Positions 7,190-13,204 of a stretch of DNA of 64,000 nt are shown here, in pieces (the first letter of the stretch is position 1; each line of letters opens with the position of its first letter). Source of the stretch: [Synechococcus] sp. NIES-970 (GTDB lineage Bacteria > Cyanobacteriota > Cyanobacteriia > Cyanobacteriales > MRBY01); the NCBI GenBank assembly GCA_002356215.1, contig AP017959.1, forward strand, positions 2,372,195 to 2,436,194, written 5' to 3'. The translations under genes and the position numbers were made by a program. The notes beneath the pieces are model-generated. The model had not been told where the DNA came from and did no database searches. It saw nothing but the letters and a program-made list of their open reading frames with translations.

Positions 7190-8689
7190 TTAATTGAAGG
7201 TTGTTGGTCGGCTCGGGGTACTATTCGCCAACATGAGCCAATCACGACCCAATTGAATGGTGATGTCAGAGTTCAATACTCCAGTGCTCTCTACCCGCAC
7301 CTCCCCGAAACCAAGGCTTGCGCGCATTTCTGAAGCGGTCAGGTCATCCCCCCGCTGGGCGACAATACGGGTATTTTCTAGAGGTTCTGACCAGTCCCGG
7401 GCGATGGAAACCCGCGTATAACCTGCCTCGTTGAGACGCTCTAAAAGTGATCGCACAGCTTGGGGATTGCCGGTACTGTCTTGGATCGCAATACGTATAC
7501 TACCGGGGGAGGGGAGGTCTCTGCTGGCGGTGTAATTGGTACTGAGCTCGAAGTGCTGGGCCATTACCCGACTAATGCTGTTGCGGTGGGGTAACCAATA
7601 GCTCACATTGCCATCACGGCCATCACCACTAAATTCTCCAGGCAACATCACCATTTGCATGTCACTGCGGTTGACCTGGGAGGCAAATCCTGCCAGGGCG
7701 ATCAATTCCTGAACGCTTAAATTGGTATCGATGTGGGACTGGATAATAGACATAATTTGGGGGAAACGCACCAAATTACTGGGGGTGAGTCCCTGTTCCA
7801 GCACCGCCCGGATTAAACTTTGTTGACGCTGTACCCGACCAATATCGCCAAATTCGTCGTAACGGAAGCGGAGAAATTGGAGGGCTCTTTCGCCGTCTAG
7901 GTGCTGTTCTCCTTTTTGGAGGTTGATATAGAGGCGTTGGCTATCGTCCTGGTAGCGCATATCTTGGGGAACATACACCGTAACGCCTCCCAGGGCATCA
8001 ATTAGTTTACCGATGCCTTGGACATTGACCCGGATATAGCGGTCAATTTCTACCCCACCGAGGGTCTCACTGACGGTTTTGGCGGCGAGAACGGCCCCAC
8101 CGTAGGCGTTAGCATGGTTAACTTTTGATGTGCCATAGCCAGGAATATTGACTTGGGTGTCCCGGGGAATCGACAGGAGTGAGAGGCGCTGAGCCGCAGG
8201 GTCAAATCGCAGCAGCAGCATGGTATCCGACAGCCCTTCAAAGGAATTTATGAGGGCATGATATCCAAGGTCTTCACTGTTTTCATCATTTACATCGGAG
8301 GTGAGGACTTTGGTGCCTAGGAGCAAAATATTGACGGGACGGGTGAGCTCCGGGAGCCGGAGAGATTGTTTGGCGATCGCCTCATCTTGAGAAAAAACAT
8401 CCAACTCTTCCGGAGCGAGGGGGGTTTGTCGGAGGGGCGTCGAAGAGAGGGATACCGCTAAGAGGGCACCAGCCGTTGCTGAGACAATCGACACCCCAGT
8501 CAAGCCACACCAAATCATCAGCCAGTGCCAAGGGGAAAGGGGACGACGTTTTTTTGCTGCAGACTTTTGAGCAATTTTGGCTTTAACTTTTTTTGCTGGT
8601 TGAGTTGCTGTAGACGGACGTTGATTTGTTTGGGATGACTTTGTTGCAGGCACGGGGTTCCTCACACCGACAAGACCACATTGAAGCAC
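7190..8689 (-). CDS. LytR-CpsA-Psr (LCP) family cell-wall glycopolymer ligase
   Basis: A 499-residue membrane-anchored protein. A basic cytoplasmic tail is followed by one helix (about residues 55-80), an LCP domain (about 117-290) and a C-terminal LytR_C domain (about 395-490). LCP hallmarks are LLLGTK, SDTMLLLRFDP, SIPRDTQV, KVNHANAYGG, and the pyrophosphate-binding arginines around FLRFRYDEFGDIGRVQRQQ. LCP enzymes transfer lipid-linked glycopolymers to peptidoglycan; in cyanobacteria the likely product is sheath or S-layer-linked polysaccharide. The first 15 or so residues are uncertain because GTG codons inside the frame could also start it. It is transcribed towards purT and has no partner gene nearby. 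Confidence 0.9.
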   Translation of the reverse strand: MLQCGLVGVRNPVPATKSSQTNQRPSTATQPAKKVKAKIAQKSAAKKRRPLSPWHWLMIWCGLTGVSIVSATAGALLAVSLSSTPLRQTPLAPEELDVFSQDEAIAKQSLRLPELTRPVNILLLGTKVLTSDVNDENSEDLGYHALINSFEGLSDTMLLLRFDPAAQRLSLLSIPRDTQVNIPGYGTSKVNHANAYGGAVLAAKTVSETLGGVEIDRYIRVNVQGIGKLIDALGGVTVYVPQDMRYQDDSQRLYINLQKGEQHLDGERALQFLRFRYDEFGDIGRVQRQQSLIRAVLEQGLTPSNLVRFPQIMSIIQSHIDTNLSVQELIALAGFASQVNRSDMQMVMLPGEFSGDGRDGNVSYWLPHRNSISRVMAQHFELSTNYTASRDLPSPGSIRIAIQDSTGNPQAVRSLLERLNEAGYTRVSIARDWSEPLENTRIVAQRGDDLTASEMRASLGFGEVRVESTGVLNSDITIQLGRDWLMLANSTPSRPTTFN

Positions 8690-8992
8690 AAGCGGGACAG
8701 AATACTTTGCTTTGATAGTTATGCTAAACCAGAGGTTCGACTTTTGGTGGGTTTTATCAGAGAAAATATCTGCTGATTGCGATGACGAGAGATAGGCTCC
8801 ACTGATGGGTCACTTTTATGTCAAGGACGGCGATCGCCAGTTACTATTTCTATCTCCACAGTCTGCAAACCAGCCGTCTCCAAATATACAAAAATCGATG
8901 GTTTTCAGTAGAACCCTAACTGAAAACCATCGACAGGATAGATTTATTGCAAGGGAACAGAACCGTTTTTGCCAGAAAATCGCCCCCTTAGC
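8690..8992. other. Intergenic region, 303 bases
   Basis: No credible gene. It holds the leader of the minus-strand LCP gene and, at its right end, the strong hairpin described separately. One HIP1 octamer is present near 8830. Confidence 0.6.
8890..8933 (-). terminator. Intrinsic terminator of the small secreted protein gene
   Basis: A perfect 15-base-pair stem (8895-8909 with 8919-8933, arms starting TCGATGGTTTT) closes a 9-base loop. On the minus strand it is followed by five T (8890-8894). It lies about 60 bases after the stop of the upstream minus-strand gene, as expected for a Rho-independent terminator. Confidence 0.85.
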
Positions 8993-9352
8993 CTAAAGCC
9001 CATTGGTGGGATTCACCATCTCGGTTGCTTCCGTCTCCGCCGTGGCCGGTTCTGGCTGTCTTCTCTGGCGCCAGTATTCTTGCAACTGGTTACGGTAATT
9101 GGCCGCGGCATTATCCAGGCTTGAGTTGGTGCTCTGTTGGAATTGCTCCGGATCGCGATTACCTAAGCGCATCATGTGGATCAGATTGTAGGGATTAAAG
9201 CCATCTGTGTTGCCATAGAGAGAAGAGTTTTCGCTGCGTTGGTAATTTCCCTCTAGATCTTGGGCGCTTTGGGCTTGGCCTGGGGTAAGGGTCGCGCCGA
9301 TGAGGGCCGCACTAAAGCTACAGGTGAGGGCAAGTAGGACAGATTTTTTCAT
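8993..9352 (-). CDS. Small exported protein of unknown function
   Basis: The protein has 119 residues from the Met that begins MKKSVLLALTCSF, a clear Sec signal peptide ending near GQAQSAQ. The mature part is polar and rich in Asn, Gln and Arg, including NPYNLIHMMRLGNRDPEQFQ and a Glu/Ala/Thr-rich tail. I do not recognise a named family, although related short Asn/Gln-rich exported proteins occur in cyanobacteria. An upstream in-frame Met at 9400 would place 16 extra residues before the signal peptide, which is unlikely. It has its own strong terminator, so it is probably expressed as a single gene. Confidence 0.75.
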   Translation of the reverse strand: MKKSVLLALTCSFSAALIGATLTPGQAQSAQDLEGNYQRSENSSLYGNTDGFNPYNLIHMMRLGNRDPEQFQQSTNSSLDNAAANYRNQLQEYWRQRRQPEPATAETEATEMVNPTNGL

Positions 9353-9519
9353 GGAACTTATCGGCAATGGGTTTATGCACAGGTTATCTTTGTTGACCAT
9401 TGTGCCGCAAAAAAGTTTCTCTGTTTTTTTGCATTTACTTTCGACGAAAAAACGCCCCCCGTGGGAGACGCCAATGGGAGCCAGTGATGAAATGCTCTAC
9501 TGGCATTGAGGGGTTTGCT

Positions 9520-9714
9520 TTAGGAGGCAGGACGCAGTTCATCCCCGAAAAACCAGGTGGTGGTTTTGTCTTCGAAGGTTACAACTGCCCCAATGCCACT
9601 GCCGTCGGTCACGCGAAAGTCTGTGATGGTGCCGACTTTACCAAGTTTGTCGACGAGATCTTTGCCGCCACGATCCCGCAAGCGGTGAACTTGTACTTTT
9701 TGCCCGATTTCCAT
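9520..9714 (-). CDS. DUF2862 family small cyanobacterial protein
   Basis: A 64-residue soluble protein that matches my memory of the DUF2862 family: MEIGQKVQVHRLRDR at the start, then KVGTITDFRVTDGSG and an ending with TTWFFGDELRP. The sequence suggests a small beta-barrel, like an SH3-type fold, but no function is established. It lies on the minus strand between the small exported protein and the recombinase-like gene, with about 40 bases to the latter. A G/C-rich imperfect hairpin with a T-run near 9448-9472 could end its transcript. Confidence 0.85.
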   Translation of the reverse strand: MEIGQKVQVHRLRDRGGKDLVDKLGKVGTITDFRVTDGSGIGAVVTFEDKTTTWFFGDELRPAS

Positions 9715-9756
9715 GCCGATTTTTTGATGTACTACTAGGTTAAAGGATGATTTTAA

Positions 9757-11073
9757 TCAACTTTCAGTGTATCGGAAACTGGTCGAAAAATTGAAGTTTA
9801 GCTGGATTTGCCATTCTTGGGACCCAGTTCGTTGGATCTGAATCTGAGCGAGAAATTCCCGTAAATAAAATCGTCGTTCGACTTCGGAGAGGTCATACCA
9901 AAAAGATTCGAGGCTGAGTGTCGTGGCGATCGCTTGGAGGTTTGCGGGGGGGAGCTGATTGAGCTGTGCTTGGAGTTGAGCAATCTCATTGTGGAGGGTA
10001 TAACGGCGCTGGGCAGCGGTATCAGGGTCAAAAATTCCCTGGGCAGCCAATGTTGGGAGGGCCGCGATCAGGGCTTCTTTTTTCTGTACTTCTGCCTGGA
10101 GCTGGGCTTGTTGCTCCCTGGGGGCAGGGCCTTGGGACTGTTGGGTGAGACTTGGTAGGTCTTGGCAGATTTTTTGAATGGTTGCTTGAAAGACTTGGTC
10201 ATAGGCGATCGCCCGACATTTTGGAGTCTGGGGACAGGTTAAGGGCCGTAAGTAGAGATATTCTTGGGCCTGGTGACGGCGGGTCACCCGGGCGATGGTG
10301 AGGGCACTACCGCAATTTTGACATTGCACTAAGCCGGCTAAACATCGAGGCGCACTGGCACTACGGGGCGCGAGGGAGCGGTTACGGCGCAACAGGCGAT
10401 CGATTTGGGCTGCTTCACCGGGGTTGAGAATGGCGGCGTGGGTTTTCAGCATGGTCTTGCCGTCACAATAGTGGAGATGGCCCCGGTAAACGGGATTGGT
10501 CAACCAGTTGCGGCCTGTAGAAACGGCAATTTTTTTCCCAAAACGTTGTTCCAGGTGGCGTACAGCCCCCCGCAGGGAACCAAATAGCAGAAAATGTTCA
10601 CAAAAATCCTTCACCACAGGGGCAGTACTGCGATCAATTAAATAGCGGTCTTGGCCCCGTTTATAGCCGTAGGGGGCGCGGCCTGGGGGAGGCAGGCATT
10701 GGCGACGATTTTTGGCATGACCCCGTTGGATTTTTTGTTGTCTGAGGCGATCGCCCATGGTGCGAAACAGTTGACCAAGGTCTGCTTTGTCTAAGGTTAT
10801 CCCAGTCTGATAGGGCGGCTCTGTGGCAATCACTTGGAGGGCAAAATTTTCGAGATGCTGGAGGCGATCGCCAATTTCTGCTAAGTTATCCCCCAGCTCA
10901 TCTAAGCGACGCAGAAGCAAATAATCTGGGCAATCAGTGGCCAGGTCTGCCAAGAGCGCCTGGAATTGATGGCGCTGCCCCAAATCACTGTAATGGCGAT
11001 CAACTTCTTCCCCCCATGGCACTGGTTCATCCCCCAGGAGCGGGTCGCTATAGCTATAGGCAAAAATGGTCAT
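9757..11073 (-). CDS. Serine-recombinase-like protein with degenerate catalytic domain
   Basis: Large-serine-recombinase architecture over 438 residues: a resolvase-like N-terminus (about 1-120), a recombinase domain (about 130-230, GRAPYGYKRG and WLTNPVYRGHL), a zinc ribbon (CQNCGSAL, then C279PQTPKC) and a coiled coil with a beta-rich tail. The catalytic part has lost key residues. Where active enzymes have YARVS this protein has AYSYS, so the Ser may remain but the Arg is gone; where they have DRLGR it has DELGD, so both catalytic arginines are replaced by acidic residues. Strand transfer is therefore unlikely and a DNA-binding or structural role is possible. XisF is the best-known cyanobacterial relative. 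No att-like repeats or phage genes flank it. Confidence 0.85.
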   Translation of the reverse strand: MTIFAYSYSDPLLGDEPVPWGEEVDRHYSDLGQRHQFQALLADLATDCPDYLLLRRLDELGDNLAEIGDRLQHLENFALQVIATEPPYQTGITLDKADLGQLFRTMGDRLRQQKIQRGHAKNRRQCLPPPGRAPYGYKRGQDRYLIDRSTAPVVKDFCEHFLLFGSLRGAVRHLEQRFGKKIAVSTGRNWLTNPVYRGHLHYCDGKTMLKTHAAILNPGEAAQIDRLLRRNRSLAPRSASAPRCLAGLVQCQNCGSALTIARVTRRHQAQEYLYLRPLTCPQTPKCRAIAYDQVFQATIQKICQDLPSLTQQSQGPAPREQQAQLQAEVQKKEALIAALPTLAAQGIFDPDTAAQRRYTLHNEIAQLQAQLNQLPPANLQAIATTLSLESFWYDLSEVERRFYLREFLAQIQIQRTGSQEWQIQLNFNFSTSFRYTES

Positions 11074-11100
11074 CGCAGCCTAAACAAAAATTCTTAGGGA

Positions 11101-11607
11101 TCAGCTCTCTTCCGGATTCGCCGATTGGCTGTGGCGAATAATGTCTTCGGGGCTAATTTGATCAACAAATTCCCGGAAAGCTCGCCGTTCTTCTTCATCT
11201 GCGTCGCGGTCTACGGGAATGGAGGCTTCCGAAATTACTTCTTCTACAACCCAGATCGGACTGTCTAGGCGCAGGGCAATGGCGATCGCATCACTGGGCC
11301 GACAATCGATCTCCTGGGTCAATGCACCTTGGCGGGTACAAAGCACCGCATAGAAAGTATGGTCTTCAAGGGCATGGATAATGACTTTTTCTAAGGTTAA
11401 ATCCCACACATCAAAGAGACTGATAAAAAGATCATGGGTGAGAGGACGGGGCGGCACTTTCTGATCCAGAACATTCATGATCGAACGGGCCTGATCCTGG
11501 GCAATGTAGATCGGTAAAGCACGGCGTTCAGAATCATCTTTCAGGAGGATAATCGGACTCCGGGTAATAGCATCTAGGGCAATCCCAGCAACGTGCATTT
11601 CAATCAT
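11101..11607 (-). CDS. Bifunctional nuclease (BFN/DUF151) family protein
   Basis: A 168-residue soluble protein. The DUF151 domain covers about residues 1-135, with IILLKDDSERRALPIYI, the acidic-basic core CRPSDAIAIALR and a conserved VHALED-like strand. Plant and bacterial members have been reported to have DNase/RNase activity, but the cellular role in cyanobacteria is unclear. An acidic tail follows (DRDADEEERRAFREF). I take the Met that begins MIEMHVAGI at 11607, because the 15 residues in front of it have no family counterpart. It is transcribed towards the recombinase-like gene, 27 bases away, and may share a transcript with it. Confidence 0.88.
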   Translation of the reverse strand: MIEMHVAGIALDAITRSPIILLKDDSERRALPIYIAQDQARSIMNVLDQKVPPRPLTHDLFISLFDVWDLTLEKVIIHALEDHTFYAVLCTRQGALTQEIDCRPSDAIAIALRLDSPIWVVEEVISEASIPVDRDADEEERRAFREFVDQISPEDIIRHSQSANPEES

Positions 11608-11699
11608 GGATTCTGAGCCTCGATGGGAAACAGGATTAGGGGCGCTCGGCAAAAACTTCTTATTACTAGTATCCTACCCGATTCCCCCGGCGCAAAAGG

Positions 11700-11728
11700 T
11701 GGTCAAATAATGCTTGAGTATTTATACT
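11700..11728 (+). promoter_or_regulatory. Possible sigma70-type promoter
   Basis: TATACT at 11723-11728 is a good -10, with the weaker TGGTCA 17 bases upstream as a possible -35. It would drive the 30-residue reading frame at 11799 or the binding-protein gene at 11996. Confidence 0.35.
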
Positions 11729-11798
11729 TAAAAGCAAGAAAGGTAGGCTCAACTTACGTTAACATTTGCGCCAAACTTTACGAGGAGGCCAGCGACGG

Positions 11799-11891
11799 AT
11801 GAAACTCAAACAAGAACTCCAAGAAATCGGGATTATTTCTGGGTTGGCACTGCTGATCTCTGGCTTTTTTACAGCCCTTATTTGTCTCTAG
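11799..11891 (+). CDS. Possible 30-residue single-helix membrane protein
   Basis: An ATG at 11799 is preceded at 10 bases by a strong ribosome site, GAGGAGG (11782-11788), much better than at most genes here. The peptide starts MKLKQELQEIGI, a charged N-terminus, followed by about 18 hydrophobic residues and a short end (ALICL). Size and topology resemble the small single-helix subunits of photosystems, cytochrome b6f or NDH-1, but it is not PetN, PsbM, PsaM or Psb30 as I know them. It may instead be a leader peptide for the following gene. Translation is suggested by the ribosome site only. Confidence 0.45.
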   Translation: MKLKQELQEIGIISGLALLISGFFTALICL

Positions 11892-11995
11892 CTGGGCCGA
11901 TTTGACGCCATGACAGGGACAGCATGTTGAAGGGAAAAGAGCTTAGGAGTATCCTGAGATGTCTGTCTGCTCAAAAGCGCCATCAAAAAATTTTT

Positions 11996-13204
11996 ATGTT
12001 TAAATATCGACGGTTTTTCCAGGGGGCGATCGCCTTTCTGACAGCAGTCTTGGTAATTGCCTGTAATGCCCCCAATCCCTCTGACAGTCAGGGTAATCTC
12101 ACAGAAGAAATTCCCCTCGGTCTAGCGGTGGCCCAAACCAGTAATGTTGCTCTTTTTGGCCAAGAACAGATTCTCGGCGGCCAAATTGCCGAAGCCTATT
12201 TCAACGACAATGGCGGAGTCAACGGTAAGCCTATCAAGATCATCACCCAAGATGTTGCGGCCGACGAACAGGGGGCAATTAACGCCTTCAATACCCTCAT
12301 CAACCAAAACCAAGTGGTGGGCATTGTGGGGCCAACTTTGTCCCAGCAAGCCTTTGCCGCTAATCCTATTGCTGAACGGGCCCAGGTGCCTGTACTCGGC
12401 CCGTCTAATACTGCCGAAGGGATCCCCCAAATCGGAGAATTTACGGGCCGCGTCTCTGCCCCGGTTTCTGTCGTTGCCCCTAATGCCCTAGCCTATGCCC
12501 TGACTTTGAATCCTGATCTGCAGCGGGTGGCAGTGCTCTATGCCCAAAACGATGCCTACAGCAATTCAGAAACTGAAATTTTCCAAGCGGCGGCCCGAGA
12601 CCTCAACCTTGAAATTGTCACGGTGCAAAGATTTCAAACCACGGATACTGATTTCCAAGCCCAGGCTACCGCAGCGATCAATGCTCAACCTGATTTGGTG
12701 ATTATTTCTGGCTTAGCCGCCGATGCTGGTAATTTGGTCAAACAGTTACGGGAATTGGGTTATGGCGGCTTAATTGTCGGCGGTAATGGCCTGAACACCT
12801 CGAATATTTTCCCGGTTTGCCAAGCCCAATGTGATGGGGTCTTGGTGGCCCAAGCCTACAGTGCCGACCTGGATAATGACATTAACCGCGCTTTCCGGGA
12901 AGCCTATTTTGAAAAAAATCAAAAGGACCCCCCCCAATTTAGCGCCCAGGCATTTACCGCCATTCAAGTCTTTGTGGAAGCCCTCCGGAGTTTGGATGCC
13001 AAAACGCCTTTAAGCACTCTTTCCCTCGCAGATCTGCGCCGACAACTGCGGGATGAGATTTTCGCGGGAACCTACACCACACCCCTGGGAGATATTTCTT
13101 TTACCGCCGAAGGCGACATCATCCAGCAGCAGTTTTTCGTGGCCCAAATCGAAATGGATGAATCGGGTCAGCAGGGACGCTTTGCGTTTATTCCTACCAA
13201 TTAG
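11996..13204 (+). CDS. Amino-acid ABC transporter substrate-binding lipoprotein (NatB/LivJ-like)
   Basis: Type I periplasmic binding protein of 402 residues. Starting at the Met of MFKYRRFFQG gives a lipoprotein signal with lipobox VIAC; an in-frame start 72 bases upstream would put an unlikely extension in front. The Peripla_BP_6 fold is shown by IAEAYFNDNGGVNGKPI, GIVGPTLSQQA, VPVLGPSNTA and LVIISGLAADAGNLVKQ. In cyanobacteria such proteins feed the N-I neutral amino-acid or urea-type ABC systems. No permease or ATPase gene is next to it; a LivH-type permease lies 28 kb away at 41626. Ligand identity is not readable from sequence. Confidence 0.88.
   Translation: MFKYRRFFQGAIAFLTAVLVIACNAPNPSDSQGNLTEEIPLGLAVAQTSNVALFGQEQILGGQIAEAYFNDNGGVNGKPIKIITQDVAADEQGAINAFNTLINQNQVVGIVGPTLSQQAFAANPIAERAQVPVLGPSNTAEGIPQIGEFTGRVSAPVSVVAPNALAYALTLNPDLQRVAVLYAQNDAYSNSETEIFQAAARDLNLEIVTVQRFQTTDTDFQAQATAAINAQPDLVIISGLAADAGNLVKQLRELGYGGLIVGGNGLNTSNIFPVCQAQCDGVLVAQAYSADLDNDINRAFREAYFEKNQKDPPQFSAQAFTAIQVFVEALRSLDAKTPLSTLSLADLRRQLRDEIFAGTYTTPLGDISFTAEGDIIQQQFFVAQIEMDESGQQGRFAFIPTN

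Follow-up and report, generated by a model that had tools for sequence, protein, structure and literature searches.

Large serine integrases such as the A118 integrase are active enzymes with a catalytic serine and belong to the DNA-cutting enzymes with which phages insert themselves into chromosomes. TldR, which is of TnpB origin, is a dead nuclease. In the available portion of PMC13418256, TldR is referred to as a transcription factor guided by RNA, and in that of PMC4874684, XisF is presented as the recombinase that excises the fdxN element and is encoded on this excisable element.

The gene described here (9757..11073, minus strand) lies in a 64,000-nucleotide stretch of DNA from [Synechococcus] sp. 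NIES-970, the whole of which is referred to as the window. We call it the dead large-serine-recombinase-like gene (dead-LSR gene). XisF (NCBIfam NF041201) was the best named family for its product, with a score of 116.7 bits over residues 33-415 that missed the equivalog cut-off of 375; three other members of the dead-LSR family scored 105.7-124.2 bits against the same model. Two of the active recombinases used for comparison, L159 and L162, were assigned to XisF by NCBIfam with 531 and 488 bits, respectively. The dead-LSR protein and XisF have the same domain order; however, XisF keeps every catalytic residue, as was confirmed in L159 and L162, whereas the dead-LSR family has lost Ser10 and three arginine positions. 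In addition, the XisF gene resides on an excisable element, whereas the dead-LSR gene was not seen on one. The recombinase domain, zinc ribbon, and C-terminal region of the A118 integrase (PDB 4kis) likewise align to the dead-LSR family, which differs from this integrase in that it has no catalytic serine and is chromosomal, outside any recognised element. A likeness to TldR would be one of logic only, namely that a mobile-element enzyme may have lost catalysis and been retained for DNA targeting; TldR is an unrelated, RNA-guided, and phage-encoded protein, whereas the dead-LSR gene is a bacterial chromosomal gene whose product has its own DNA-binding domains. Judged from its sequences, the dead-LSR family lacks several of the tested defining features of active large serine recombinases, namely the serine, the arginines, and the location on a mobile element.

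A search of the literature by title and the start of the abstract returned no catalytically dead cyanobacterial serine recombinase, which is weak evidence of absence with subscription papers mostly outside the coverage. The available portions of PMC4874684, PMC5101192, and PMC8987985 deal with active xis recombinases, DNA repair genes, and recruited mobile elements, and do not describe the dead-LSR family.

Results

The dead-LSR open reading frame was intact and encoded 438 amino acids from an ATG. Pfam matches together with alignments divided the protein, which is encoded throughout on the minus strand, into five parts. Residues 1-110 (10744..11073) are the former catalytic (resolvase-like) domain, which is acidic and the least conserved part, and are followed by the hinge and the recombinase (DNA-binding) domain at residues 111-242 (10348..10743), the best conserved part. 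Residues 243-291 (10201..10347) form a zinc ribbon with Cys251, Cys254, Cys280, and Cys286. A helical and coiled-coil region (residues 292-374, 9952..10200) precedes the C-terminal segment (residues 375-438, 9757..9951), in which alignment showed a conserved E-x-R-R-F-Y-x-R-E-F stretch. In the window protein, the Pfam Recombinase score was above its cut-off (24.6 bits, cut-off 21.1), and those of the zinc ribbon (21.6 bits, cut-off 25.3) and Resolvase (17.9 bits, cut-off 23.3) were below theirs. At E up to 0.01, Recombinase was found in 44/44 members of the family, the zinc ribbon in 41/44, and Resolvase in 40/44. This last count and a match to gamma-delta resolvase predict a resolvase-fold N-terminal domain. 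The family profile matched the catalytic domain of the gamma-delta resolvase structures with an E-value of 7.7e-5 (HMMER), and the DNA-binding part of the A118 integrase with an E-value of 1.9e-11, the latter match reaching through the C-terminal region. AlphaFold gave a mean pLDDT of 41 on two sequences, a model too poor to use; the coiled coil is assigned only by the A118 integrase alignment and this low-confidence model. The intact gene and the recombinase domain, zinc ribbon, and coiled coil had all been recognised in an earlier sequence-only reading of the window, and the present analysis agrees with it on these points.

For the counts of active-site residues, 99 orthologues remained after removal of rows with identical ends, and we used the 91 that had at least 380 amino acids, excluding eight short or partial ones; L058 was included in the 91 though its N-terminal motif does not align. 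The comparators were 20 active serine recombinases picked by similarity to the dead-LSR family, with near-copies among them, after L066 (taken in an incorrect frame) and L148 (the same protein as L147) had been dropped. Positions are given in the numbering of gamma-delta resolvase, from which we also take the presumed catalytic roles of Arg8, Ser10, Asp36, Arg45, Asp67, Arg68, and Arg71. In the alignment, all these positions were kept in 20/20 active enzymes. In the window protein, the Arg8, Ser10, Arg68, and Arg71 positions were lost and Arg45 was kept. YSYSD (residues 6-10, 11044..11058) stands where the active enzymes have the active-site YARVS, and the nucleophilic serine of YxRVS is absent. 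DELGD (residues 58-62, 10888..10902) stands where they have DRLGR; the register of this motif is fixed by the HMMER alignment of the family profile to gamma-delta resolvase, in which the family 'eeLGd' falls on DRLGR. Thus, the sequence-only reading was right in reporting Glu and Asp for the two DRLGR arginines and the loss of the N-terminal Arg; the loss of the Ser10 position and the retention of Arg45, neither of which it mentioned, can be added.

The same picture was obtained across the family. A search for arginine-retaining orthologues, which does not contradict the loss, found none of the 91 relatives with Arg at the Arg8 or the Arg71 position and one with Arg at the Arg68 position. The Arg8 position was Tyr in 84/91, and Tyr6 was kept in 89/91. 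The nucleophile stretch was shortened in the family alignment and then continued with Ser or Thr at residue 9 (63/91) and Asp (70/91), leaving no invariant Ser. The Arg68 position was Glu in 66/91 and Asp in 19/91, with the single Arg in L055 (DRLGD), and the Arg71 position was Asp in 65/91 and Glu in 12/91. The Asp36 and Arg45 positions were kept in 89/91 and 88/91, respectively. These replacements are consistent across the family, unlike random decay. The N-terminus was common to the orthologues, and only 27 bases lie between the upstream gene and the ATG; therefore, there is no hidden N-terminal frame, and a frameshift does not account for the altered motifs. The 438-aa protein descends from a large serine recombinase and lacks the residues for cutting DNA by that known mechanism.

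Two kinds of N-terminal variants were seen. One gene of genome G040 (L055 / L141) is a divergent DRLGD copy, with Asp67 and Arg68 kept and Arg71 lost, and may represent an intermediate stage on the way to a dead enzyme. Four orthologues (L104, L109, L119, and L122) have long variable insertions between the positions equivalent to residues 32 and 34 of the window protein, just before the Arg45 position.

Nei-Gojobori dN/dS was far below 1. In the 40 closest of 83 pairs, the N-terminal domain gave values of 0.04-0.27, with one pair undefined, and the remainder of the protein 0.04-0.16; the 83 pairs had 72 to 98.5% identity, and sequences recur between them so that they are not independent. The mean pairwise identity in the family was highest in the recombinase domain (0.68), followed by the C-terminal segment (0.60), the zinc ribbon (0.56), the coiled coil (0.45), and residues 1-110 (0.41). 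In the 20 active enzymes the order was reversed, with 0.36 for the N-terminal domain, 0.27 for the recombinase domain, and 0.26 for the zinc ribbon. The four zinc-ligand Cys residues were kept in 91, 91, 91, and 89 of 91. The N-terminal domain had a median net charge of -10 in the family (range -20 to 0) versus 0 in the active enzymes (range -7 to 2), and the two DNA-binding domains had a net charge of +24 versus +16. Constraint thus falls mainly on the DNA-binding half. The N-terminal domain is also under purifying selection and keeps the Asp36 and Arg45 positions, indicating that it has some role.

In four genomes, the orthologue (L134, L135, L136, and L142) has its start at the recombinase domain or shortly ahead of it. 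When family N-terminal domains were used as queries in translated searches, no catalytic core was found upstream of these four; the sole matches were to the hinge in L134 and, weakly, over 71 codons in L135 (E 4.8e-4), and an unrelated open frame ends upstream of each. Diagnostic residues of the DNA-binding half were kept at 29, 28, 29, and 25 of 29 positions in L134, L135, L136, and L142, respectively. In the tree, from which L134 is absent, the other three and L061 occupied four positions, and the well-supported branches require two of these positions or more to be separate; L061, labelled there as domain-lacking, is a contig-edge fragment. The one part that selection has retained across all intact copies seen is the DNA-binding half.

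The dead-LSR gene was present in 6/6 genomes of the genus and in 241/388 genomes of the class (254 matches at E up to 1e-3 minus 13 weak ones), with identities outside the genus of mostly 45-57% over the full length. It was missing from 147/388 genomes of the class, including 63/63 of family f16 (genomes of 1.6-3.7 Mb, probably of picocyanobacteria), and is therefore not required by all cyanobacteria. In a phylum search of 194 genomes, the best match beyond the class was 1.1e-22, and the orthologues counted in the class were at 1.2e-109 or better; in three class genomes (G141, G292, and G357) the matches reached just 1e-14 to 1e-22 and were to either a remnant or different recombinases. The family formed one clade separate from 19 active enzymes (SH-aLRT 91) in a quick tree that has several long active branches and leaves out L066, L148, and L064. 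No close relatives were found in plasmids and phages, with 22.8-24.9% identity among the matches listed (15 of the 29 phage records), or in viral contigs, which gave distant recombinases only, with 24% identity among the matches listed.

The neighbours of the dead-LSR gene in the window are ordinary genes. A gene for a bifunctional nuclease (BFN) domain protein, identified by Pfam (11101..11652, minus strand), is the one that ends 27 bases before the ATG. In a survey of 75 loci, neighbours were not conserved beyond the genus. The sequence-only reading had placed the gene among conserved genes, which did not hold: the gene is conserved and its neighbours are not. Its other statement on the surroundings, that att repeats are lacking, stood, as no direct repeat of at least 14 nt was found within 8500-12500 that had copies to the left and to the right of the gene. 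With neither flanking direct repeats nor close plasmid or phage copies, there was no sign of a mobile element with att repeats. These surroundings suggest a gene that acts in trans.

Several candidate associations were rejected. The BFN gene was adjacent in 3/75 loci, all of this genus, and is not counted as a functional part. When the upstream regions of 10 family f6 loci and of 6 loci of the genus were aligned, no conserved non-coding block was seen, and autoregulation was discarded; no target site of the protein was found. The HIP1 palindrome GGCGATCGCC was dismissed as a target because its occurrence, counted in 388 genomes, did not match the presence of the gene: f37 g59 and f25 genomes have no dead-LSR gene yet hundreds to thousands of copies, and G009, G363, and G155 have the gene with just 4, 2, and 11 copies. 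Elsewhere in the window, a terminator-like inverted repeat (8895-8933), with perfect 15-nt arms around a 9-nt loop, lies between a LytR-family gene and the open reading frame at 8993-9400.

Discussion

The dead-LSR protein is, in our judgement, quite probably a repurposed, non-cutting host protein that is predicted to bind DNA sequence-specifically and to act in trans. A large serine recombinase would have been taken over by the host early in the history of cyanobacteria and would have lost catalysis, while strong constraint persisted on the recombinase domain, zinc ribbon, and C-terminal region. The protein may bind one or a few attachment-site-like DNA sequences via the recombinase domain and the zinc ribbon, probably as a dimer. 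It would act in trans and not cut, its most likely role being that of a regulator or a site-specific chromosome-binding protein. The acidic N-terminal domain could prevent the protein from adopting the cleaving configuration or could provide a contact surface. Lost catalysis, purifying selection, and occurrence in many lineages are what is expected of a repurposed mobile-element protein. The sequence-only reading had proposed a DNA-binding protein retained for another purpose, and this proposal gains support from the purifying selection, the wide retention, the inverted conservation, and the natural orthologues without the catalytic domain, both binding and purpose being predictions. A more far-reaching version, in which the protein recognises the descendant of an ancient attachment site throughout the class, pairs the bound copies without cutting, and thereby organises, partitions, or regulates many chromosome copies, seems improbable to us.

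Other explanations were weighed against the same data. The conserved C-terminal region, which mediates subunit contacts in such enzymes, and the presence of the dead-LSR gene together with other large serine recombinases in some genomes (e.g., G303, G354, and G366) would suit an accessory or dominant-negative partner, which restrains or directs an active serine recombinase of the same cell through mixed dimers. We think this improbable overall: the N-terminal domain can be missing, and a search of the window genome with the family profile gave no second hit at E up to 10. The only PF00239 matches of that genome are on two small contigs (C3 and C5), and such a role is unlikely there. An enzyme still active as a recombinase or nuclease with other residues, such as the conserved Tyr at the Arg8 position, might be read from the near-invariance of that Tyr, Tyr6, Asp36, and Arg45. 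However, two of the arginines that hold the scissile phosphate are acids in most relatives, Ser or Thr at residue 9 occurs in just 63/91, the gene has no flanking direct repeats, and some orthologues lack the whole domain. Unorthodox catalysis is very unlikely because the candidate residues vary or have no partners and the domain that would carry them can be absent. A decaying relic awaiting loss would agree with the destroyed catalytic motif and with the broken copies in G357, G375, and G188, but it is scarcely credible given the intact reading frame, the retention in 241/388 genomes at mostly 45-57% full-length identity outside the genus, and the selection test, which contradicts it within the limits of that test.

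If the dead-LSR gene indeed encodes a non-cutting host protein, it would represent the conversion of a large serine recombinase to that use, and it probably points to a new DNA site and a new process in organisms that are genetically tractable. A gene placed among recombinases by sequence tools and unable to recombine by the known mechanism is nevertheless kept in most of the class genomes examined. The family would also provide a natural series of enzyme disarming, from L055/L141 with Arg68, through acids in place of the arginines in most members, to some without the catalytic domain.

A possible partner gene was seen in the neighbourhood survey. In 21/75 loci from nine families (e.g., L072, L081, L107, and L126), a VOC/glyoxalase-like gene is encoded nearby on the same strand, upstream of the orthologue, and it is the neighbour seen in most families. 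It is within 250 bases in 18 of the 21, and in three its overlap with the orthologue is 1 to 4 bases; the two genes may represent an ancestral operon. Outside f16, both genes were present in 178 genomes, dead-LSR only in 63, VOC only in 33, and neither in 51 (Fisher p 2.7e-8, a statistic that ignores shared ancestry and assembly completeness). The f28, g71, and most g53 genomes depart from this pattern, so that the correlation is partial, and we treat the link to the VOC protein as a lead only. In G357, a 2.8-Mb genome, the dead-LSR gene is a remnant with ten stops (G357:C1:1826504-1826869), and it is intact in the congener G351 (4.8 Mb); the VOC gene is likewise just a remnant in G357 and G387, which suggests joint decay in reduced genomes. 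A degenerate extra N-terminal copy with two stops (G182:C1:3060000-3060275), about 16 kb from the intact gene, hints at a partial duplication.
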